Assembly: GCF_000971395.1 (NCBI RefSeq)
Contig: NZ_BBME01000011.1
Span: forward strand, 124,001 to 188,000
Direction: 5' to 3'
Length of the DNA stretch: 64,000 nucleotides
DNA from: Demequina iriomotensis
GTDB taxonomy: Bacteria; Actinomycetota; Actinomycetes; Actinomycetales; Demequinaceae
The translations under genes and the position numbers were made by a program. Shown here one piece after another: positions 5,015-17,661 of this stretch; within the stretch, counting starts at the first letter, position 1, and every line of letters starts with the position of its first letter. The notes below the pieces were generated by a model. That model made no database searches. It had not been told where the DNA came from and saw only the letters and a program-made list of their open reading frames with translations.

Positions 5015-6244
5015 GTGACCACCACCTCCGCGCCCACGCGCGCGCATGCCGCCGTCCCCGCATCGGCCGGCATCTCCGCCGTCCTGCTCTCCGTGCTCGG
5101 CCTCCTGTCCGCCATCGCCCCGTTCGCCACGGACCTGTACCTGCCGGCCTTCCCGCGCATGGCGCAGGACTTCGGCACGGGCGCGACGGCGGTGCAGCTC
5201 ACGCTCACGGCGTTCCTGGTGGGCGTCACCGTCGGGCAGCTGGTGTTCGGCCCGATCTCCGACCGGTTCGGCCGCAGGCCCCCGCTCATCGCAGGCTCGG
5301 TGCTCATGGTGGTGGCGGGGGTCGCGACCGTGGTCGCGCCGAGCGCCGGGGTGCTGATCGCGGCGCGCCTCGCGCAGGGGCTCGGCGGCGCGGCGGGCAT
5401 GGTGATCGGTCGCGCGGTCATCTCCGACCTCGCGACCGGGAGGGCCGCGGCGCGCGCCTTCAGCCTCATGATGATCGTCGGCGGCGTCGCCCCGGTGGTC
5501 GCGCCCGTCGCGGGCGGCCTCCTGGTGGACCCGATCGGCTGGCGCGGCATCCTCGCCGTCGTGCTCGCGTTGTCGGTCGTCATGCTGATCGCCGTGCTCG
5601 TCGTGGTGCGCGAGACCTACCCCGCCGAGCGGCGCCTCGTCCACCGCGCGGAGCGCGCCGCCACAGGCTCCCCGCTGCGCGCGCTGCGTTCGCGCGCCTT
5701 CATCGGCTACACGGTGACGTTCACCTTCGCCTTCGGCGCGATGATGGCGTACATCTCGGCCTCGCCCTTCGTCTACCAGGACATGATGGGGCTCGGTGCG
5801 ACGGGCTACGGCCTCGCCTTCGGGGTCAACGCGCTCGGCCTGGTCGTCGTGAGCGGCGCCTCCGCGCGGCTGGCGGCGACCCGCGACGTGCGGGGCCCGC
5901 TCACGGTCGGCATCGCGACGTTGCTCGCGTCGACGCTCGTGCTCGCCGCGCTGGTCGGTTCAGGGGTGGGCGCCGGTTGGCTCGCGATCCCCCTGTTCGT
6001 CGCAGTGTCGAGCCTGGGCCTCGTCCTCGGCAACGCGACGGCTCTTGCGCTCGGTGCCGTCCCCGCGGCCGCGGGCGCCGCGTCGGCCGTGCTCGGTGCG
6101 GCGCAGTTCGGGCTCGCGGCGCTGGTGTCGCCGCTCGTGAGCATCGGCGGCGGCGCGACGGCGGCGCCGTTGGCGCTCGTCATGGTCGCATGCGCCGTGG
6201 TCGCGGCGGCGACGCTCGCGTTCACCGCCCGTCGGACGCGCTGA
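5015..6244 (+). CDS. Bcr/CflA-type MFS drug exporter
   Basis: A 409-residue 12-helix transporter of the major facilitator superfamily, DHA1 Bcr/CflA group. The first-helix motif DLYLPAFPRMAQDF and the loop 2-3 motif GPISDRFGRRPPL (about residues 75-90) are characteristic. It would export toxic compounds by proton antiport across the cytoplasmic membrane. The GTG start is supported by GAGGAG five bases upstream and lies next to the MarR operator. Its 3' end overlaps the convergent VOC gene by 23 bp. Substrate not predictable. Confidence 0.88.
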   Translation: MTTTSAPTRAHAAVPASAGISAVLLSVLGLLSAIAPFATDLYLPAFPRMAQDFGTGATAVQLTLTAFLVGVTVGQLVFGPISDRFGRRPPLIAGSVLMVVAGVATVVAPSAGVLIAARLAQGLGGAAGMVIGRAVISDLATGRAAARAFSLMMIVGGVAPVVAPVAGGLLVDPIGWRGILAVVLALSVVMLIAVLVVVRETYPAERRLVHRAERAATGSPLRALRSRAFIGYTVTFTFAFGAMMAYISASPFVYQDMMGLGATGYGLAFGVNALGLVVVSGASARLAATRDVRGPLTVGIATLLASTLVLAALVGSGVGAGWLAIPLFVAVSSLGLVLGNATALALGAVPAAAGAASAVLGAAQFGLAALVSPLVSIGGGATAAPLALVMVACAVVAAATLAFTARRTR

Positions 6245-6665
6245 GCCCGTCGGCCCGCCGCTCGAGCAGCTCGATCAGGTTGCCCTCGGGATCGGCGACG
6301 AACGCCATCCGGATGCCCGGCTCAGGCGACGGCCGGGGCGTCATCACCTCGCGCGCGCCCATGCCGACCAGACGCGCGAACACCTCGTCGAGCCCGCGCA
6401 CGTCGAACGCCATGTGGCCGAAGCCCTCGCGCAACGCCGCCTCGGCCGGGTCCGCGGCGCGCGGACCGCGCGTCGATCCCTCCCGGTGAAGCAGCTCCAA
6501 CCGTCGCCCGTCCCCGTCGATCAGCATGACGAAGTCGAGGCCGATCGCGTCGACGCGACCGGTGAAGTCCACGTCGAGGCCGAACGCGTCGCGGTACCAG
6601 GACGATGCGGCGACCAGGTCGGCGACGGTGAGGCCCACGTGGTCGAGCCGCGCGCGCTCAGGCAT
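6222..6665 (-). CDS. VOC (glyoxalase/dioxygenase superfamily) protein
   Basis: A 147-residue vicinal-oxygen-chelate fold protein with two beta-alpha-beta-beta-beta modules. Potential metal ligands are the His in LDHVGLTVADL (residue 8), the His in FGHMAFDVRG and the Glu in DPEGNLIELLE. It overlaps the stop of the FAD oxidase by 8 bp and is therefore the third gene of the SDR-oxidase-VOC operon. Family members are glyoxalases, epimerases, ring-cleavage dioxygenases or resistance proteins. The operon suggests a role in the same unknown catabolic route, but the reaction cannot be assigned. Confidence 0.8.
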   Translation of the reverse strand: MPERARLDHVGLTVADLVAASSWYRDAFGLDVDFTGRVDAIGLDFVMLIDGDGRRLELLHREGSTRGPRAADPAEAALREGFGHMAFDVRGLDEVFARLVGMGAREVMTPRPSPEPGIRMAFVADPEGNLIELLERRADGLSASDGR

Positions 6666-8046
6666 GGACGTTCAGCCCCGCCGGGTCGGACGTCAGGTAC
6701 GACGCGATCCGTCCGTGCGGGTCGCGAGCCGCACGGATCTCCTCGAGCCGCGCGTGGTGCGCGGGGGAGAGGAAGCGGTCGTTGCGCGCGGTGAAGTCGG
6801 TGTCGCCGAGGTAGACGCCGACCCCGCCGTCCCGGGCGATCGCCGCCGTCTGCGCATGGACGCGCTGCCGGTAGCGGGCATCGTCCGCCGCGTCGTCGTA
6901 GATCAGGTACGTCGCCACGTAGACGTTGCCCTCGACCGAGAACGCCATGTCGGGCAGCGCACGCTCGGGGGCCCAGCCGTACCAGATCGAGAACGAGTGC
7001 TCGGTGTCGAGGCCGCGCCAGATGTCGAGCAGCAGCGGCGCGAGCGTGTCCGCAGGGGCGTCGGTCCAGGCGCAGTCGACCGCGTACCGGTAGCCCTCGG
7101 GGTTCTGCCCGGCCTGCGCCGCGCTCTCCTCGGCGATCGAGGTGGGCGCCGTGACGTGCCCGAGCTCGCGGCCCGCGACGGGGCAGTCGCCGAGGCCCGC
7201 GAGCAGCGCGCGGGCCTCCTGGTCCGAGCCGGCCATGCAGGTCGCATGGAGGAGCAGCACGGTGCCGCCGGGGTGCGCGACGCCCTCGTGGAGCGGCACG
7301 TCGGTCAGCCGCGTCGCCGCCATGACCGGCTCGACGCGGCGGTCGAGCGTGGGCAGGACGGTGTGCAGCCAGCGGATGACCGCCTCCGCGTCGTCGAGGT
7401 GGAACGTCCAGGTGTCGTGCCACATCGCTGCCGGCCTCGGGTAGGTCCGGAGGTGGAAGCGGGTGACGATGCCCGGGAAGCCCGGCCCCGCGCCGCGCGC
7501 CGCCCAGTAGAGGTCGGAGTGCTGGGTGGGGTCCGCGCGCACGTGCTCGCCGTCCGCTGTCACCACATCGACGGCGACGACGCTCTCGCACGCCCAGCCC
7601 TTGAGCCGCCCGTTCCAGCCCTGCCCGCCCTGGAGCAGGAAGCCGCCGATGCCGACGCTCGGGCAGTGGCCACCGGGGAAGGCGCGGCCGCGCTCGGCGA
7701 GGTAGGGCGCGAGATCCTCGCCGCCCCGGGTCGCCGGCCCCGCGGCCACGATGCCCGTCTCCTCGTCGTAGTCGAGCGAGCGCAGCGCCCCGAGGTCGAT
7801 GAGCAGCGCGTCGTCGCGCACGCTCCACGCGGCCCAGGAGTGGCCGCCGGAACGGACCGACACGTTCCAGCCGTTCTCGATCGCGAGTCGGACTCCTGCG
7901 GCCACGTCCTCGGCGTCGACGGCCTCGAGCACCGCGGCGGGGTAGCGCTCGGGCTTGCGGGCGTTGAACACGCGCCCGACCCGCGCCTCCTCGTAGCCGG
8001 GCGCGCCGCGCATCGTCAGGCGCCCGCGGACTGCCGGGGCGCTCAT
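6658..8046 (-). CDS. Berberine-bridge-enzyme-like FAD oxidase, bicovalent type
   Basis: A 462-residue flavoprotein with an FAD_binding_4 (PCMH) domain and a C-terminal BBE segment. Two residues that attach FAD in bicovalent oxidases are both present: His69 in RSGGHS and Cys128 in GGHCPSVGIGG. Known relatives oxidise alkaloids, sugars and oligosaccharides, or alcohols, with release of H2O2. No signal peptide is seen. The ATG overlaps the SDR stop as ATGA, so the two are translationally coupled. The upstream promoter carries the shared 17-bp palindrome at 8909. The substrate is unknown; a sugar or glycoside hydroxyl is a reasonable inference from the neighbourhood. Confidence 0.86.
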   Translation of the reverse strand: MSAPAVRGRLTMRGAPGYEEARVGRVFNARKPERYPAAVLEAVDAEDVAAGVRLAIENGWNVSVRSGGHSWAAWSVRDDALLIDLGALRSLDYDEETGIVAAGPATRGGEDLAPYLAERGRAFPGGHCPSVGIGGFLLQGGQGWNGRLKGWACESVVAVDVVTADGEHVRADPTQHSDLYWAARGAGPGFPGIVTRFHLRTYPRPAAMWHDTWTFHLDDAEAVIRWLHTVLPTLDRRVEPVMAATRLTDVPLHEGVAHPGGTVLLLHATCMAGSDQEARALLAGLGDCPVAGRELGHVTAPTSIAEESAAQAGQNPEGYRYAVDCAWTDAPADTLAPLLLDIWRGLDTEHSFSIWYGWAPERALPDMAFSVEGNVYVATYLIYDDAADDARYRQRVHAQTAAIARDGGVGVYLGDTDFTARNDRFLSPAHHARLEEIRAARDPHGRIASYLTSDPAGLNVHA

Positions 8047-8813
8047 CCCACCACCGCCGCGCCGCCGTCGACCGGGATGTTCGCCCCCGACACGTGCCGC
8101 GACTCGTCGCTCGCGAGGAACAGGATCGCGTGAGCGACGTCCTCGGGCTGCCCCCACCGACGCAGCGGGACGCGGGAGAGGATCTGCTCGGCGGGCCCGT
8201 CCGGGTCCATGAGCATCGGGGTGGTGTGCGGGGTCTGGGTCATGGCGGGGGAGACCGCGTTGACCCGGATGCCGTGGGGGCCGCCCTCGACCACCAGGTG
8301 CGAGGTGAGCGCCAGCACGCCACCCTTGGCGGCGCCGTGCGCGTTCTGCGGCATGAACCACGCGCCGCGCGACGCCGAGATCGAGCCGATGTTGACGATC
8401 GAGCCTCCTCCGCGCGCCACGAGGTGCGGCCAGGCCGCGCGGGTCACCAGGAACACGATGTCCAGCTCGTTCCGCATGGTGAAGGACCAGTCCTCGTAGG
8501 ACAGGGCGTCGATCGCGCCGAAGCGGATCGCCGACGCGTTGTTGACCAGCACGTCGACGCCGCCGCCGAGCGCGGCCGCGGCCTCCACCCACGTGGAGGC
8601 GCCCTCGGGCGTCGCGAGGTCGACCGGGGCGATCGCGTCCATGCGGCCGCCGGCCTCGCGCGCCAGCGCGACGGTCTCCTCGGACGGGCCCGGATGGAGG
8701 TCGCAGCCGATGACGTGCGCACCTTCCCTGGCGAAGGCGAGGGCCGTGGCGCGGCCGATGCCGCCGCCCGTCCCGGTGACGAGCGCGACCTTGCCGGAGA
8801 GCCTGCCGGTCAC
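8043..8813 (-). CDS. Short-chain dehydrogenase/reductase with atypical HxxxK site
   Basis: A 256-residue classical-size SDR with a Rossmann nucleotide motif (VTGTGGGIG, residues 12-20), NNAS (91-94) and the Ser at about 146. The catalytic Tyr of the YxxxK motif appears to be His159 (HGAAK); the codon reads CAC on the minus strand near 8337-8339. First gene of the SDR-FAD oxidase-VOC operon and divergent from a second SDR operon. The family oxidises or reduces hydroxyl/keto groups using NAD(P). The His substitution makes the usual mechanism uncertain. Confidence 0.85.
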   Translation of the reverse strand: MTGRLSGKVALVTGTGGGIGRATALAFAREGAHVIGCDLHPGPSEETVALAREAGGRMDAIAPVDLATPEGASTWVEAAAALGGGVDVLVNNASAIRFGAIDALSYEDWSFTMRNELDIVFLVTRAAWPHLVARGGGSIVNIGSISASRGAWFMPQNAHGAAKGGVLALTSHLVVEGGPHGIRVNAVSPAMTQTPHTTPMLMDPDGPAEQILSRVPLRRWGQPEDVAHAILFLASDESRHVSGANIPVDGGAAVVG

Positions 8814-8908: not shown

Positions 8909-8925
8909 ATGAAAGTCACTTTCAC
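8909..8925. promoter_or_regulatory. 17-bp palindromic operator, copy 1
   Basis: ATGAAAGTCACTTTCAC, containing the perfect palindrome TGAAAGT-C-ACTTTCA. On the minus strand it lies just after a TAGCAT -10-like hexamer (8932-8937), upstream of the SDR-oxidase-VOC operon. Position immediately after the -10 suggests a repressor site. Confidence 0.7.
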
Positions 8926-9017: not shown

Positions 9018-9034
9018 GTGAAAGTGACTTTCAC
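9018..9034. promoter_or_regulatory. 17-bp palindromic operator, copy 2
   Basis: GTGAAAGTGACTTTCAC, a perfect palindrome around one central base, directly downstream of the -10 of the rightward operon. Best match to the consensus drawn from the four copies. Confidence 0.75.
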
Positions 9035-9063: not shown

Positions 9064-9822
9064 ATGACGGGTTGGCTGGACTTGACGGGCAAGGGCGCCC
9101 TGGTGGTCGGCGCGGGCGGGCTGGGAGGCGCCAGCGCGCTGAGCCTCGCGCGGCAGGGCATGGCGACCGTGGTGGTCGACCGCGACACGGCCGCGTTGGA
9201 TCGCGTGGCGACCGCGGCCGCCGATGCGGGGCACGCCCTGGTGACGCTCGTGGCGGACATCTCGACGCCCGAGGCGTGCCGCGCGGTGGTCGCCGAGTCC
9301 GTCGCGCGCGTCGGAGCGCCGCGTGCCTTCGTCCATGCCGTGGGGCGCAACGACCGGAGGCCCGTGCTCGAGCTCGGCGACGCCGACTGGGAGTCGATCG
9401 TCACCCTCAACCTGTCGACCGCGTGGTGGCTGGGGCAGGAGGTCGGCCGCCGCATGGTGGCCGAGGGGTGCGGCCGCATGGTCTTCGTCTCCTCGGTCTC
9501 CGCGCACCTCGCCCACGCGCACCACGCGCCGTACGCGGCGACCAAGGGTGGCATCAACCAGATGATGAGGGTGATGGCGCGCGAGTGGGCGTCGCACGGC
9601 GTCACCGTCAACGCGGTCGGGCCCGGCTACGTCGAGACCGACCTCACGCGGGCGTATCTCGATCGCGACGGGCACCGCGAGGAGCTCGAGGCGCTCGTGC
9701 CGGCGCGCAGGCTCGGCGACCCGGCGGAGGTGGCGGACGCCGTCACCTTCCTGCTCTCCGACCGCGCGCGCTTCATCACCGGCCAATGCCTCTACGTCGA
9801 CGGCGGCCGGACGCTCGTATGA
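9064..9822 (+). CDS. Short-chain dehydrogenase/reductase
   Basis: A 252-residue classical SDR with a normal YxxxK site (YAATK near residue 159), a Ser pair before it (FVSSVSAH), a glycine-rich nucleotide loop (VGAGGLGGAS) and a C-terminal GQCLYVDGGRTLV typical of FabG-like enzymes. First gene of an operon; its stop overlaps the next start as ATGA. The promoter carries the shared palindrome. Probably an NAD(P)-dependent dehydrogenase in the unidentified catabolic route encoded by 6.2-17.6 kb. Confidence 0.88.
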   Translation: MTGWLDLTGKGALVVGAGGLGGASALSLARQGMATVVVDRDTAALDRVATAAADAGHALVTLVADISTPEACRAVVAESVARVGAPRAFVHAVGRNDRRPVLELGDADWESIVTLNLSTAWWLGQEVGRRMVAEGCGRMVFVSSVSAHLAHAHHAPYAATKGGINQMMRVMAREWASHGVTVNAVGPGYVETDLTRAYLDRDGHREELEALVPARRLGDPAEVADAVTFLLSDRARFITGQCLYVDGGRTLV

Positions 9823-10790
9823 ACGGCCACCGTCGCGACCTGTCGCTCGGCGAGGCGCGCGCGCTGGTGGCGCGCGCCGTCGACAAGGCCGAGCAGCTCG
9901 GGCTGCGCGGCGGGATCGCGGTGGTTGGGGCGAGCGGCGGCCTGGTGACCGCCGCGCGGCTCGACCGGGGCGGCGCCGGCGGGATGGCGCGCGCCCGGTC
10001 CAAGGCCTGGATCGCGGCCACCCAGCAGGTCCCGACCGCCGAGCACCTCCGGCGCATGACGACGCTCCCGGCGCCCATCGCCGCGGGCTTCGTCGCCGCC
10101 TCGCCGGAGGCCGCCTTCCCGGGCGCCGGCGGCATGCCCGTGGTGGTCGACGGTGTGGTGGTCGCCGGGATCGCGGCCTCCGGCGCAACGGTCAGCCCGT
10201 TCCTGCCGGCCGGCGTCGCTCCCGAGGCGGTGAGCGCCGACGGCGAGCCCGCCAACCCCGAGGACCTGCTCGTCGCCTACGCGCTCGGCATCCCCTACGT
10301 AGGACAGCACGGCGACGACGGCGCGCGCTGGGCCGCACGCTTCGGAGACCTCGCCGTCGCACCCGAGGCGGCGCTCGGCATGCGGCCCGCCCCGGCCGCG
10401 ACCGCGCAGCGCGAGCTCGCCTGGGCGAGCGCGCTGTGCGACGCGGTCATCGCGGCCGCGGCGGCGCGCGGCGTGAGGGTCTCCGTCGCGGTGGTCGACG
10501 CCGGCGGCGACCCCGTCCGCGAGGACCGGATGGACGATGCGGTGGTGGGCGGCGTCGAGGTCGCGCGGGCGACCGCGGCCGCCGCGGCGCGCTTCGGGCT
10601 CCCGAGCGCCGAGCTCGCGGACGTGTTCGGGTCCGCGGCGGCGGCGCTCCGAGGGCTCGCCCCGACGGACGTGCTCGCGGCTCCCGGCGGCGTCCCACTC
10701 GTGGTCGACGGCCGCGTGGTCGGGGGCCTGGGCGTCGGGGGAGCGCAGCCCGAGGCGTGCGCCGCGATCGCCGCGGGGGCGGCCCGATGA
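9819..10790 (+). CDS. Tandem GlcG/HbpS-domain protein
   Basis: A 323-residue protein made of two GlcG/HbpS (DUF336) domains, about residues 9-150 and 195-320. Each contains the family pattern of an Ala-rich helix, a strand such as VSVAVVDAGGDPVREDRMD, and an end like GGVPLVVDGRVVGGLGVGGAQ. Family members are usually single domains of about 140 residues found with glycolate oxidase, propanediol or haem/corrinoid functions. Start and stop overlap both neighbours by ATGA. No signal peptide is seen, so it is likely cytoplasmic. Role unknown; it may be a structural or cofactor-binding partner of the oxidoreductases. Confidence 0.8.
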   Translation: MNGHRRDLSLGEARALVARAVDKAEQLGLRGGIAVVGASGGLVTAARLDRGGAGGMARARSKAWIAATQQVPTAEHLRRMTTLPAPIAAGFVAASPEAAFPGAGGMPVVVDGVVVAGIAASGATVSPFLPAGVAPEAVSADGEPANPEDLLVAYALGIPYVGQHGDDGARWAARFGDLAVAPEAALGMRPAPAATAQRELAWASALCDAVIAAAAARGVRVSVAVVDAGGDPVREDRMDDAVVGGVEVARATAAAAARFGLPSAELADVFGSAAAALRGLAPTDVLAAPGGVPLVVDGRVVGGLGVGGAQPEACAAIAAGAAR

Positions 10791-11725
10791 GCGTCGACAC
10801 CCGCGTCGCCGTCCTCGGCTGCGGCGCCATCGGCAGCCTGTACGCCGCGCACCTCGCGCGCGTCCCGGGCGTCGAGGTGTGGGCCGTCGACCCGTGGCGC
10901 GAGCACGTGGAGGCGATCGCGCGCGACGGCCTGCGCGTGACCGGGGCCGGCGACTTCGTCGCGTCGGTGCACGCGGTCGCCGACGCCGCGGCGCTGCCGC
11001 CGTGCGACCTCGGCATCGTCGCGACCAAGGCCGCCCACACGCGGGCGGCCGTCGAGGCGGCCGCGCATGCCCTGCGCGAGGCCGCGGTCGCGAGCGTCCA
11101 GAACGGGCTCGGCAACGAGGAGCGGATCGCCGCCGTGGTGCCGCGCGTCATCCGCGGCAGCATCGTCACCGCCGGCGCGGTCGTCGCGCCCGGGGTGGTC
11201 CGCTACGACGCGCCGGGAGACTCGTGGCTCGGGCCGTTCGAGCCGAGCCCCGCATCGTCCGCGCAGATCGGGACTCTCGCATCGCTGCTCACCGCGGGCG
11301 GCCTGCGCACGTTCGCGATGGACGATGCGCGCGGCCCGCAGTGGACCAAGGTCGTGTTCAACGCCGCGACCAGCCCGCTCGCCGCGCTCACGGGGCTGAG
11401 CGTCGGCGAGGTCGGCACTCACCCCGAGCTGCGGGTGCAGGTCGACGCGCTCATCGCCGAGGCGCTCGCCGTGTGCGAGGCGGCCGGCATCGCGCTCCTT
11501 CGCGACCCGGCCGACGCGGTGGCCGAGGCGATCGAGGAGGCCTACGGGCATCGTCCGTCCATGCTCCAGGACGTGGTCGCGCGCCGCCCCACCGAGGTCG
11601 ACGCGCTCAACGGCGGGATCGCCGCCGAGGGCGCCCGGCGGGGCGTCGCGACGCCGTTGCACGCCGCGATGGTGGCGCTCGTGCACGGGCTCGAGTCGAG
11701 CTGGTCCGGCGGTTCCGGGCACTGA
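10787..11725 (+). CDS. Ketopantoate reductase (PanE/ApbA)-family oxidoreductase
   Basis: A 312-residue two-domain reductase. The N-terminus has the NAD(P) loop GCGAIGSLYAAHLA, and the C-terminal helical domain carries WTKVVFNAATSPLAALTG, with the conserved Lys and Asn of the family. ATGA overlap with the GlcG gene. True PanE makes pantoate, and panB lies 50 kb away, but membership of this catabolic operon and the shared operator argue for a different 2-keto acid or hydroxy-acid substrate. Function is therefore given at family level only. Confidence 0.82.
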   Translation: MSVDTRVAVLGCGAIGSLYAAHLARVPGVEVWAVDPWREHVEAIARDGLRVTGAGDFVASVHAVADAAALPPCDLGIVATKAAHTRAAVEAAAHALREAAVASVQNGLGNEERIAAVVPRVIRGSIVTAGAVVAPGVVRYDAPGDSWLGPFEPSPASSAQIGTLASLLTAGGLRTFAMDDARGPQWTKVVFNAATSPLAALTGLSVGEVGTHPELRVQVDALIAEALAVCEAAGIALLRDPADAVAEAIEEAYGHRPSMLQDVVARRPTEVDALNGGIAAEGARRGVATPLHAAMVALVHGLESSWSGGSGH

Positions 11726-11739
11726 CAGGGAGGAACGAC

Positions 11740-12663
11740 ATGGGGACGAGGGTGCTCGGGCTCGGGTGCGGCAACCCGGGCGGCAGCGCGGAGATCCTGC
11801 TCATCGAGGCGCTGCGCGCCGCCGAGGCGGACGGCGCGGACGTGGAGCTGGTGCGGCTCGACGACCTCGGCCTCGATCCCGGGCCGGACGACGACGCGGG
11901 GTGGTTCTGGGAGCGCCTCATCGACTGCGACGCCTGGATCATCAGCGCGCCCATCATCAGCCGCACGGTGCCCGGCCGGCTCAAGGTGCTCGGCGACCGC
12001 CTGCTCGGACCCAACGCGGACGCCGCGATCATCGAGGGGCTGCTCGCGGCCCGGCTGCGGGGCGAGGACCCGGCCGTGCCGTTCCGCGTCGACGAGCGTG
12101 TGCTGCGCCCGCGCGTCGCGGGCTTCATCGCGTGCGGCGGCTCCCTCACGACGCAGTGGAAGACGCTGGCGCTGCCGGTGATGCACACCCTCACCTTCTC
12201 GATGAGCATCGCCGTCGTGGACCAGATGGTGGTCGAGGGGGCCGGGACCCCGCGCTCGGTGGTGCTCGATCCCGAAGCGGTCGCGCGCGCGGCGACGCTC
12301 GGGGGCAACGTCGCGAGCCAGCTCGGCCGCGGGCTCGATGACGCGGAGTACCTCGGGCCGCCCGGGGCATGCCCCCTGTGCCGCCTCGACGTGGTGGTGC
12401 TGCGCGGCGCCGAGGTCGAGTGCGCCACGTGCGGCGCCCGGGGCCGGCTCGAGGGCGCGGGCGTCGCGTGGACCGACCTGTCGCCGTCCGTCATCTCCTT
12501 GGAGGAGCGCGCCGCCCACTACCGCGAGATCGTCGAGACGGCGGGCGCTCATGCCGCGCGGGCGGCGCTCGTGGAGGAGCGTGCCGCGGCGTACGCCGGA
12601 TATCCGACCGTGCGGCCAGGAGCCGCCAAGGTCACGACTTCGTCACGGTCGCCACGATTGTAG
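11740..12663 (+). CDS. Flavodoxin-fold NAD(P)H:FMN reductase-like protein with zinc ribbon
   Basis: A 307-residue protein. The N-terminal half resembles NADPH-dependent FMN reductases/iron-sulfur flavoproteins: a GLGCGNPGGSAEILLIEAL loop, AWIISAPIISRTVPGRLK, and later AGFIACGGSLTTQWK. After residue 205 there is a small zinc-ribbon-like motif, CPLC (211-214) and CATC (228-231). GGAGGA-like Shine-Dalgarno, 14 bp after the PanE-like gene, last gene of the operon. It may supply reduced flavin or act as an electron carrier; the zinc ribbon is unusual for the family. Confidence 0.75.
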   Translation: MGTRVLGLGCGNPGGSAEILLIEALRAAEADGADVELVRLDDLGLDPGPDDDAGWFWERLIDCDAWIISAPIISRTVPGRLKVLGDRLLGPNADAAIIEGLLAARLRGEDPAVPFRVDERVLRPRVAGFIACGGSLTTQWKTLALPVMHTLTFSMSIAVVDQMVVEGAGTPRSVVLDPEAVARAATLGGNVASQLGRGLDDAEYLGPPGACPLCRLDVVVLRGAEVECATCGARGRLEGAGVAWTDLSPSVISLEERAAHYREIVETAGAHAARAALVEERAAAYAGYPTVRPGAAKVTTSSRSPRL

Positions 12664-12700: not shown

Positions 12701-12717
12701 GCGAAAGTCGCTTTCAC
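12701..12717. promoter_or_regulatory. 17-bp palindromic operator, copy 3
   Basis: GCGAAAGTCGCTTTCAC, a slightly degenerate copy of the shared palindrome, with an extra half-site TGTGAAAGC beginning at 12720. It sits just downstream of the -10 of the ABC transporter promoter. Confidence 0.65.
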
Positions 12718-12770: not shown

Positions 12771-13802
12771 GTGAGCATGACTCGTCATTCACTCAAGAGG
12801 TCGCTGCTCGCCGTCGGCGCGGCGACCACGCTCGTGATCCTCACGGCGTGCAGCTCGTCCGACGGCACGGGCGAGGCCTCGACCTCGGCCGAGCCGAGCG
12901 CGACGGAGCCGGCGGCCATGGAGTCGGAGGCTCCGGCCTCGGACCTGCCGAAGACCCTGGTGTTCGCGCCCCTCGCGCTGTCGATCCCCGCGATGCAGGG
13001 CCTGTCCGACGGCGTGTCCGGCTACGGCGGCAGCCAGGGCTGGGAGGTCATCGTCCAGGACCCCAAGCTCGACCCGGCGACCCAGGTGCAGCAGGTGACC
13101 GAGGTCCTCGAGTCCGGCCGCGCGGGCGCGCTGTGGATCATCGCCATTGCACCCGCCTCGATGACCGACGTGCTCCACGCGGCGCAGGAGAAGGGCGTGC
13201 CCGTTCTCATCAACGGCGTGCCGGCGGACTACGGCTTCGACGGCCCGCAGGCCGGCATCACGTTCGACACGATCGACTACGAGGCCGGGGGCGCCGCGCT
13301 CGGCGAGCAGACGGGCATGTGCATCAACGAGAAGCTGGGCGGCGAGGCCACGATCATCTACGGCGCCTCGCCCGCGGGCACCGCGGGCAAGGAGGAGTCC
13401 GACGCGGCGTTCCTCGAGGCCCTCGAGGCGACCGCGCCCGGCGTCGAGGTGGTGCAGACCTGGGATATCACCGACCGTGCGGCCTCGCAGACCGATGTCG
13501 GCTCGATCCTCCAGGCCCACCCTGAGGTCGACGTGGTGGCGGCCGCCAACGACGAGGGCGCGCTGGGTGCGATCGGCGCCTTCAAGGCGGCCGGCAAGGA
13601 CCTGCCGTGCGTCACCGACTTCGGCGGCAACGACGAGGTGCTGGGGCTGGTCGAGGCGGGCACGATGTACGCGACGGTGGCCCTCCAGTTCGAGGAGGAC
13701 ATGATCCAGTCCTTCGACACCCTGGCCGAGATGCAGATGGATCCGACCGCGGTCGGTCCCGAGCTGACCGTGCCGCTCAAGGTCACCAACGCGGCCTCCT
13801 GA
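12771..13802 (+). CDS. Sugar ABC transporter substrate-binding lipoprotein
   Basis: A 343-residue periplasmic-binding-protein family 1 (ribose/xylose type) solute receptor. It has a lipoprotein signal with lipobox LTAC (Cys27), then a Ser/Glu-rich linker. AAAGGAG lies six bases before the GTG; an ATG at 12777 is an alternative start. It is followed by a permease and an ATPase. The ligand would be a sugar or sugar-like compound released outside the cell. It is not a copy of the rhamnose receptor at 27-28 kb, and its promoter carries the other operator type, so the two uptake systems appear separately controlled. Confidence 0.88.
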   Translation: MSMTRHSLKRSLLAVGAATTLVILTACSSSDGTGEASTSAEPSATEPAAMESEAPASDLPKTLVFAPLALSIPAMQGLSDGVSGYGGSQGWEVIVQDPKLDPATQVQQVTEVLESGRAGALWIIAIAPASMTDVLHAAQEKGVPVLINGVPADYGFDGPQAGITFDTIDYEAGGAALGEQTGMCINEKLGGEATIIYGASPAGTAGKEESDAAFLEALEATAPGVEVVQTWDITDRAASQTDVGSILQAHPEVDVVAAANDEGALGAIGAFKAAGKDLPCVTDFGGNDEVLGLVEAGTMYATVALQFEEDMIQSFDTLAEMQMDPTAVGPELTVPLKVTNAAS

Positions 13803-13822
13803 TCGGCGCCTGGCAGAAAGAC

Positions 13823-14926
13823 ATGACGATGACCAGCCCTGTTGAGGCGGGCGGCACGGCGACTCCCGGGACCCCGGGAGCCGCCGCTCCGGCCGCTCCG
13901 CCCCCGGGAGCCGCCTCGGCGTCCCCGGCCAAGGACAGCGCCGGCGTGCGCGGTCTCATCTTCCTGCGCGACCGCGGCATCTTCGTGCTGTGGATCCTCA
14001 TCATCGCGGTGTTCGCGGTGTGGGCGAACCCGTACTTCGCGACGCTGAACAACGCGATCCTGGTCGCCAACGCGGCCGCCATCAGCGCGATCTTCGCCGC
14101 GGGCGTCGCGGTCGGGATCATCTGCGGCGCGCTCGACCTGTCGATCCCCGGCGTCGCCGCGTTGTCGAGCTGCATCGCGGGCTGGATGATCACCACCGGC
14201 CTGCCCGTGTGGCTCGCATTGGTGGTGGGCATCGTCACGGGCGCGCTGGTCGGGTTCGTCAACGGCGTGATCTCGCTGCGGGGGTTCAACCCGATCATCG
14301 TGACCATCGCGATGCTGTCGATCACCTCCGCGGCGGCCTCGATCATCGCGGGCGGGTACACGTTCCCGGGCCTCACCCAGCTCGACTTCATGGGCACGCA
14401 GCGCTACCTCGGGATCCCCGCGCCGGTGTGGATCACGGCGGGCGTGTTCCTCGTCGGCACGGTGTTCCTCACCAAGACGCGCGACGGCATCCGCCTCATG
14501 GCGGTCGGGGGCAGCGCCGAGGCGGTGCGCCGGTCGGGGATCCACAGCGATCGCTACAAGGTGCTCGCCTTCGTCATCAGCAGCACGTGCGCGGCGCTGG
14601 GCGGGCTCGTCACCACGGCGACCGTCACCGAGGCCAACCCCAGCGCGAGCCCGGCGCTGATCTTCACGGCACTCACCGCCGTCGCCCTCGCGGGCGTCTC
14701 GCTCGTGGGCGGGCGGGGGAGCCTGCCCCGCGTGCTCGTCGGAGCGCTGGTGCTGGCGACCATCGCGAACGGCCTCACCATCAAGGGCGTGCAGCCGTAC
14801 TGGGCCACGGGCGTCACGGGCGTGCTGCTCATCGGCTCGCTCGCGCTCGAGCGGTGGGTCACCGCCTCCGTCTCGCGGCGGCTCATGGCCACCGCGCAGG
14901 CGTCCGTCCACACAGGAACGAGGTGA
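13823..14926 (+). CDS. Sugar ABC transporter permease (RbsC type)
   Basis: A 367-residue BPD_transp_2-family permease with about ten hydrophobic helices and an N-terminal Pro/Ala-rich cytoplasmic tail (residues 8-40). Family signatures include GIICGALDLSIPGVAAL (the conserved D-LS-G region) and the late ALAGVSLVGGRGSLP. The start at ATG 13823 follows AGAAAG; the gene is 20 bp after the receptor. It should form the membrane channel for the sugar bound by the preceding lipoprotein. Confidence 0.87.
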   Translation: MTMTSPVEAGGTATPGTPGAAAPAAPPPGAASASPAKDSAGVRGLIFLRDRGIFVLWILIIAVFAVWANPYFATLNNAILVANAAAISAIFAAGVAVGIICGALDLSIPGVAALSSCIAGWMITTGLPVWLALVVGIVTGALVGFVNGVISLRGFNPIIVTIAMLSITSAAASIIAGGYTFPGLTQLDFMGTQRYLGIPAPVWITAGVFLVGTVFLTKTRDGIRLMAVGGSAEAVRRSGIHSDRYKVLAFVISSTCAALGGLVTTATVTEANPSASPALIFTALTAVALAGVSLVGGRGSLPRVLVGALVLATIANGLTIKGVQPYWATGVTGVLLIGSLALERWVTASVSRRLMATAQASVHTGTR

Positions 14927-16979: not shown

Positions 16980-17615
16980 TCAGCCGTCGAAGGAGGTCGC
17001 CTCGCCCGGGGCCAGCCGCTGGACCACGCCCTCGGGGCTCAGTCCTGCGAGCATGCCGCCGTACTTGCCGGGGTCGGTGGTCTCACCTTCGTGCATGGGC
17101 ACCGCGACGCGTGGCGCGATGTCACGCACGTAGTCGATCGCGTCCGCGAGCTTCAGCCACGGGCCGTCGATCGGCACCGCGAGGATGTCGACCGGGACCT
17201 CGGGGCGCACCCATGAGTCGCCGGGATGCAGGAACGCGCCGTGGTCGACCAGGTAGGCGTTGTTGGTGCAGCCCGGCACGGGGCCGTAGACCGCGGCGTG
17301 GAGGCCTCCCAGCACGTCGACCGTCGAGCCGCCGAATGAGAGGCGGTCGCCGGGCCTGGCCGCTACCGCGCCCATCGGCAGCGTCGCCACCGCGGGTGCC
17401 GTGTCCGCGTCCACCACGAGCGCGGCGCGCGGGTTCGCCGCGAGCAGCGGGCCGAGCCTGTCGATGTCGACGTGATCCGCGTGCTCATGCGTCACCAGGA
17501 CCGCGTCGAGCTCTCGGACGCCCTCGAACGCGGACAGCACGCCGGGGTCGATCAGCAGGCGCGCGGCTTGCGTCTCCACGAGGAAGCAGGCGTGACCGAG
17601 GTGGGTGAGGCGCAT
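16980..17615 (-). CDS. Metallo-beta-lactamase-fold hydrolase (UlaG-like)
   Basis: A 211-residue MBL-fold protein with the metal motif THEHADHVD (His43, His45, Asp47, His48) and further likely ligands in HPGDS and PMHEGE. The size and start (MRLTHLGHACFLVE) match the UlaG/YtnP-like lactonase or phosphodiesterase branch. AAGGAG precedes the ATG. The promoter region carries a degenerate copy of the 17-bp palindrome at 17645, linking it to the unassigned catabolic regulon. A lactonase step after sugar oxidation would fit that regulon, but this is inference. Confidence 0.83.
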   Translation of the reverse strand: MRLTHLGHACFLVETQAARLLIDPGVLSAFEGVRELDAVLVTHEHADHVDIDRLGPLLAANPRAALVVDADTAPAVATLPMGAVAARPGDRLSFGGSTVDVLGGLHAAVYGPVPGCTNNAYLVDHGAFLHPGDSWVRPEVPVDILAVPIDGPWLKLADAIDYVRDIAPRVAVPMHEGETTDPGKYGGMLAGLSPEGVVQRLAPGEATSFDG

Positions 17616-17644: not shown

Positions 17645-17661
17645 GAGAAAGTGACTTCCAC
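17645..17661. promoter_or_regulatory. 17-bp palindromic operator, copy 4
   Basis: GAGAAAGTGACTTCCAC, two mismatches from copy 2. On the minus strand it follows a TATGCT -10-like hexamer and precedes the MBL hydrolase gene. Confidence 0.6.

Follow-up and report, generated by a model that had tools for sequence, protein, structure and literature searches.

Introduction

SDR enzymes form one of the largest superfamilies of enzymes, and their tyrosine is treated as the one catalytic residue that hardly ever varies. The aryl cis-dihydrodiol dehydrogenases and the aromatic-catabolism SDR 1-(4-hydroxyphenyl)ethanol dehydrogenase (4ure) both carry the Tyr-type tetrad. In another fold family, the lactate and malate dehydrogenases rely on an Asp/His acid-base pair. 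A natural SDR with Glu at the place of the Tyr is known from mint, the isopiperitenone reductase. Eugenol synthase is described as lacking the catalytic Tyr (PMC1991597).

Here we analyze SDR-H, an SDR encoded within a stretch of 64,000 nucleotides of the Demequina iriomotensis genome, referred to as the window. With classical SDRs (PF00106/PF13561), such as FabG, L-rhamnose 1-dehydrogenase (7do5/7b81) and 2,3-butanediol dehydrogenase (6xew), it shares the fold, the TGxxxGxG and NNA motifs, and the residues Ser144 and Lys163, but it differs from them in carrying Glu116 and His159 where their tetrad has Asn and Tyr. The isopiperitenone reductase and eugenol synthase are likewise SDRs without the Tyr; both are plant enzymes, and both are without the double change to Glu and His. 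Searches of open PMC text returned no account of a Glu/His SDR clade. A likeness to the flavonoid (fde-type) pathway was also considered; a paper on a flavone-transforming dioxygenase makes no mention of such an SDR (PMC8552027).

Results

SDR-H scores far above the curated cut-offs of both Pfam families, with 180.1 bits for PF13561 (cut-off 27) and 141.1 bits for PF00106 (cut-off 26.6). Its AlphaFold2 model (pLDDT 94.4, pTM 0.93) displays an SDR-type Rossmann fold and is matched by Foldseek to the listed SDRs with TM scores of 0.84-0.94; the best structural matches, with Z of 37-39, are ordinary SDRs. Identity to the structural matches listed, amongst which is 1-(4-hydroxyphenyl)ethanol dehydrogenase, amounts to 28-38% over the whole chain. 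The sequence motifs of the family are present as a glycine-rich TGTGGGIG at residues 13-20 and NNAS at residues 91-94. Asp38, found in 43 of the 44 members of the Glu/His clade defined below, presumably confers a preference for NAD(H). Taken as sequence signatures, these three elements point to bound NAD(H). Amongst the named NCBIfam SDR equivalogs, none of the best 25 of 220 listed models reached its cut-off for this protein. An already solved His-type SDR was sought amongst the five best PDB profile matches, all of which turned out to carry Tyr, accompanied by Asn in four of them and by His at the Asn column in 2et6. Its fold and cofactor site place SDR-H in the SDR family, though outside the classical type with an Asn-Ser-Tyr-Lys tetrad.

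The initial annotation had identified the open reading frame as an SDR with His in place of the catalytic Tyr; its boundaries were exact, and the gene lies on the minus strand (Table 1). The segment aligned to YxxxK does read HGAAK, with CAC encoding His159 and AAG encoding Lys163. The catalytic Ser had been placed 13 residues before the His, at Ser146, which is wrong: in the alignments, the counterpart of the catalytic Ser in Tyr-type SDRs is Ser144, located 15 residues before His159, and compared with those enzymes a two-residue insertion precedes the His. Ser146 was rejected on the grounds that column 146 is variable amongst the 44 Glu/His proteins (A 23, S 13, T 6, Q 1, G 1) and Ser144 is invariant in all of them. 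Absent from the initial annotation was a second replacement, revealed by profile alignment, of the tetrad Asn by Glu116. We considered the adjacent Asn115 as the tetrad Asn and rejected it, since Glu116 is the residue of the stretch TMRNELDIVF that falls on the Asn column; residue 115 is Asn in 29 of the 44 clade members, and residue 116 is Glu in every one. The tetrad of SDR-H is Glu116-Ser144-His159-Lys163 instead of Asn-Ser-Tyr-Lys. Across the clade, His159 is as strictly kept as Glu116 (44/44), and Lys163 is found in 39 members, with Asn in the other five. A stand-in Tyr elsewhere in the chain was rejected as well, the single Tyr of the protein, Tyr106, being Phe or Val in relatives. When the SDRs of the same genome were placed on one profile, 19 distinct proteins showed Tyr at the catalytic column and only SDR-H showed His. 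Five divergent ones (L144, L145, L146, L149, L150) had other letters or no clear alignment at this column, and L151 had no row in the profile alignment. One of the divergent proteins, L146, is FabI-like in look.

The His is kept in every ortholog read, as revealed by the alignment with close homologs that the initial annotation had suggested. These comprise the Demequina sets L002-L008 and L013-L018, which are two collections with overlapping strains, a protein from a bog MAG (L019, 81% identity) and L009 (58%). Homologs with Tyr had been named as the sign of a local mutation or sequencing error; amongst the relatives read, all of those above 44% identity have His and none has Tyr. Both letters occur in relatives at 38-44% identity, most with Tyr and L124, L010 and L041 with His. 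His was further found in relatives on 12 plasmid stretches (of 40 plasmid matches listed) from Streptomyces, Arthrobacter, Corynebacterium, Rhodococcus, Rhizobium, Agrobacterium, Caulobacter, Massilia, Sinorhizobium and Caballeronia. In a sample of Actinomycetes, with six candidates scored per genome, matches reached E 1e-48 or better in 20 of 394 genomes including the own one; 21 of the 22 places listed carry His and one (L122) Tyr, and repeating the search with L112 as query matched mostly the same genomes. Distribution within the genus is patchy, the gene being present at an identity of at least 87% in 8 of 37 genomes examined, own included. Six of 337 alphaproteobacterial genomes gave a match at E 1e-45, one with Glu/His and five with Tyr. 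The Massilia protein as query found a match in none of 398 Pseudomonadota genomes at E 1e-52, in a search that had no positive control and scored few candidates in each genome. A profile search over seven genomes was too general for sorting the clade. The Glu/His proteins fit one clade, whose members occur in Actinomycetes and on alpha- and betaproteobacterial plasmids.

Comparison of the window gene with seven Demequina genes yields dN/dS ratios of 0.097-0.152, and the His159 codon is CAC in all eight Demequina genes compared, which led us to reject a sequencing error or local mutation. As a whole clade of relatives keeps the His and the second active-site change, the two have the look of a lasting alternative form of the active site rather than of an error. 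The suggestion that the enzyme works by another mechanism or is specialised is supported as far as sequence can tell, because the His occurs in every ortholog and across the clade, a second active-site change accompanies it and the gene is under purifying selection.

We then tabulated residues 116 and 159 in 187 distinct SDR segments, which remained of 224 rows after duplicates and rows under 200 residues were dropped. The pairs found are Asn/Tyr (117), Glu/His (44), Asp/Tyr (13), His/Tyr (3), Thr, Gly, Cys or Met with Tyr (one each) and Ser/His (one, L041), and five segments have neither Tyr nor His. Because the set was assembled by similarity to the query, these frequencies describe the sample only; the 44 include many closely related proteins. 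Neither Glu/Tyr nor Asn/His occurs amongst the 187, none of the 137 segments with Tyr being paired with Glu. Thinning at 80% identity left 128 rows, 26 of them Glu/His. Twelve relatives collected with other queries (L213-L224) served as a check and include five with Glu/His and six with Tyr (Asn in five, Asp in one). In the twelfth, L222, the gene is split by a frame change, with the Glu in the first part and the His in the second. This clade member lies unannotated in two open frames on the Novosphingobium plasmid pCAR3 (L222:3940-4751), beside a ring-hydroxylating dioxygenase.

For the phylogeny, columns 116 and 159 were left out, and groups were named only once the residues had been seen. 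The free quick tree of the 128 rows unites 25 Glu/His rows and L122 in a group with an SH-aLRT of 100. L122, which has Thr/Tyr, stands in an open fork with the clade, and L010 (Glu/His) falls outside. Trees constrained to hold 25 or all 26 Glu/His rows together outscore the free tree by 35.4 and 37.7 log units, and neither is rejected (p-AU 0.792 and 0.811). One origin of the Glu/His pair would be the simplest reading of these alignments and trees. The clade is further set apart from Tyr-type SDRs at the columns of Gly36, Phe98, Trp128, Gly177 and Ser188. The five members with Asn for Lys163 belong to one Streptomyces-like group (L097, L110, L113-L115) and keep Glu, Ser and His, which marks the Lys as the dispensable residue. 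The SDR L041 (6001-6714), from a Caldilineaceae MAG, combines a His at the Tyr column with a Ser at the Asn column and possibly represents a separate loss of the Tyr.

Table 1. Features of the SDR-H locus (positions in the window)
Feature	Position	Strand	Details
Small VOC/glyoxalase-fold protein	6222..6665	-	147 aa; 8-base overlap with the oxidase gene
BBE/VAO-type FAD oxidase (PF01565)	6658..8046	-	462 aa; 4-base overlap with SDR-H; GGHS and GHCPSVG stretches
SDR-H	8043..8813	-	256 aa; GTG start, TGA stop; Glu116-Ser144-His159-Lys163; PF13561 (E 7e-53), PF00106
Lys163 codon	8325..8327	-	AAG
His159 codon	8337..8339	-	CAC; place of the catalytic Tyr
Ser144 codon	8382..8384	-	TCG; catalytic Ser
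Glu116 codon	8466..8468	-	GAG; place of the tetrad Asn
Palindrome GTGAAAGTSACTTTCAC	8909..8925	.	1 mismatch; candidate operator
Palindrome GTGAAAGTSACTTTCAC	9018..9034	.	exact; candidate operator
Second SDR, divergent	9064..9822	+	ordinary Tyr (PYAATK)
HbpS/GlcG-like protein (PF03928)	9819..10790	+	
Ketopantoate-reductase-like protein (ApbA/PanE)	10787..11725	+	
FMN_red-type protein (PF03358)	11740..12663	+	
Palindrome GTGAAAGTSACTTTCAC	12701..12717	.	2 mismatches; ahead of the importer genes
Periplasmic binding protein (PF13407) of ABC importer	12771..13802	+	
Permease (PF02653)	about 13799-14926		after the importer binding protein
Palindrome GTGAAAGTSACTTTCAC	17645-17661		weaker copy

The genes of SDR-H, an FAD oxidase and a VOC protein overlap end to end in the window. 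The GGHS and GHCPSVG stretches of the oxidase are putative sites of covalent FAD binding. All six Demequina loci with flanks keep this gene order, with the Tyr-type SDR and the HbpS/GlcG-like gene opposite. Six additional near loci (L172-L176, L189) show the oxidase adjoining SDR-H in three cases and about 4.5 kb off in a fourth. These loci also contain the VOC gene (three), the GlcG-like and PanE-like genes (two), the importer protein (two), the FMN_red gene (one) and a rhamnosidase (one). A neighbor search at E 1e-12, which left out low-identity rows for the two SDRs, found none of the window neighbors, the oxidase included, in 13 more distant chromosomal or 12 plasmid stretches. The idea that SDR-H is the partner of a coupled FAD oxidase holds locally, by gene overlap, the six Demequina loci and three of the six near ones. 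With no oxidase match at this threshold in the 13 chromosomal and 12 plasmid stretches, the His is not accounted for by such a partner. The locus in the window contains in addition an alpha-L-rhamnosidase, a family 1 glycosidase, an L-rhamnose-isomerase-like gene and an iron alcohol dehydrogenase; its annotated part is without a ring-hydroxylating dioxygenase. Near the SDR-H/oxidase pair of L173 lies a second BBE-type oxidase (9655-11016; PF01565 and PF08031).

The palindrome GTGAAAGTSACTTTCAC has four matches against 0.02 expected, and its first two copies sit between the divergent genes of SDR-H and the second SDR. Genome-wide, these two are the only copies whose 15-base core has no more than one mismatch. 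Each of the six Demequina loci L013-L018 has copies with one to three mismatches between its two divergent genes, and the palindrome is absent from seven more distant loci examined. It is a candidate operator linking the two divergent operons and the importer, and perhaps also the iron alcohol dehydrogenase. A scan of the divergent region for sigma-70-type promoters found none. Beside the fourth copy, a protein beginning MRLTHLGHAC is encoded on the minus strand (16980-17615), and a protein that by eye resembles it adjoins SDR-H in L172 (6594-7217).

Elsewhere, the neighborhoods of clade genes are catabolic. Ring-hydroxylating dioxygenases are encoded near them in L099, L102 and L222, BphC-type (ring-cleavage) dioxygenases directly after the SDR gene in L099 and L100, and LigB dioxygenases in L094 and L176. 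Several relatives likely share the pathway position of the aryl cis-dihydrodiol dehydrogenases, as in L099, where the SDR lies between a ring-hydroxylating and a BphC-type dioxygenase. In L176, from another family, SDR-H occurs with a rhamnosidase, a family 1 glycosidase and the LigB dioxygenase. Genes of the fumarylacetoacetate hydrolase family are present in 6 of 15 annotated Glu/His plasmid stretches (L095, L100, L102, L104, L219, L221), and in L223 the context includes an FAD_binding_4 protein with a cytochrome c.

Discussion

Building on the fold, the cofactor motifs, the co-substitution and the conserved operon, we lean towards the view that SDR-H probably is an active NAD-dependent dehydrogenase of a catabolic step, with an acid/base machinery rebuilt by the changes of Tyr to His159 and of Asn to Glu116. 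An ordinary SDR fold would have undergone both replacements, most simply once, with Ser144 and usually Lys163 staying in place. Ser144 would hold the hydroxyl or carbonyl of the substrate, His159 would take or give the proton, and hydride would pass to or from NAD. Glu116, together with Lys163 where present, would set the charge of the His and relay the proton through a putative Glu/His contact, like the Asp/His pair of lactate and malate dehydrogenases. These enzymes offer the precedent of a carboxylate and a His as acid/base in an NAD dehydrogenase; they belong to another fold family, and no kinship is claimed. Alternatively, Glu116 might pair with Lys163 instead of His159. The enzyme would probably oxidise a secondary alcohol or a diol that stems from a plant phenolic or glycoside; oxidation of an alcohol or of a dihydrodiol fits the neighborhoods described above. 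Several observations speak against a dehydrogenase with a Glu/His pair, namely the Ser/His combination of L041, the Thr/Tyr of L122 within the clade group, the position of L010 outside the clade in the free tree and the patchy occurrence of the gene. More far-reaching, and put forward only tentatively, is the proposition that a carboxylate/His pair replaced the Tyr/Lys machine on the SDR scaffold in a single event, giving a widespread unnamed subfamily (Glu-Ser-His, with Lys dispensable) for aromatic and plant-phenolic catabolism.

Alternatively, His159 might plainly replace the Tyr beside Lys163 in what is still a dehydrogenase, with Glu116 in a structural or Lys-binding role that leaves it out of proton transfer. 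The retention of Lys163 in 39 of 44 members and the existence in L041 of a His without the Glu agree with such a swap, but Glu116 is invariant in all 44, including the five proteins with Asn for the Lys, and the Asn/His combination is missing from the 187 sequences. As these five proteins keep both Glu and His, the pair is favored over the plain swap, which we regard as unlikely. Less probable still is a clade that has left redox chemistry altogether and uses the SDR pocket, with or without NAD, as a lyase, dehydratase, epimerase or hydrolase with Glu/His as general base. Apart from Ser and Lys, the two residues on which redox catalysis by SDRs is defined have both changed, and reaction types of this kind are represented in the neighborhoods (fumarylacetoacetate hydrolases, VOC proteins); the preservation of TGTGGGIG, NNAS, Ser144 and Asp38 is nevertheless what would be expected if a nicotinamide still works in the pocket. 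A pseudoenzyme, a decaying gene, a local mutation or a sequencing error is very improbable, for although an SDR that has lost its Tyr would usually be expected to be inactive, the CAC codon recurs in all eight Demequina genes at the low dN/dS given above, Glu/His is fixed across phyla and the operon is conserved.

A clade that dispenses with the Tyr and the tetrad Asn and has Glu and His fixed in their stead represents a natural test of active-site rebuilding, and annotation based on YxxxK will misjudge such enzymes. Since some members are without Lys163 as well, natural proteins make it possible to tell apart what each of the four positions does. The subclade with Asn for Lys163 carries the motif AHxxANAGV, and three of its four tetrad positions differ from those of a classical SDR.
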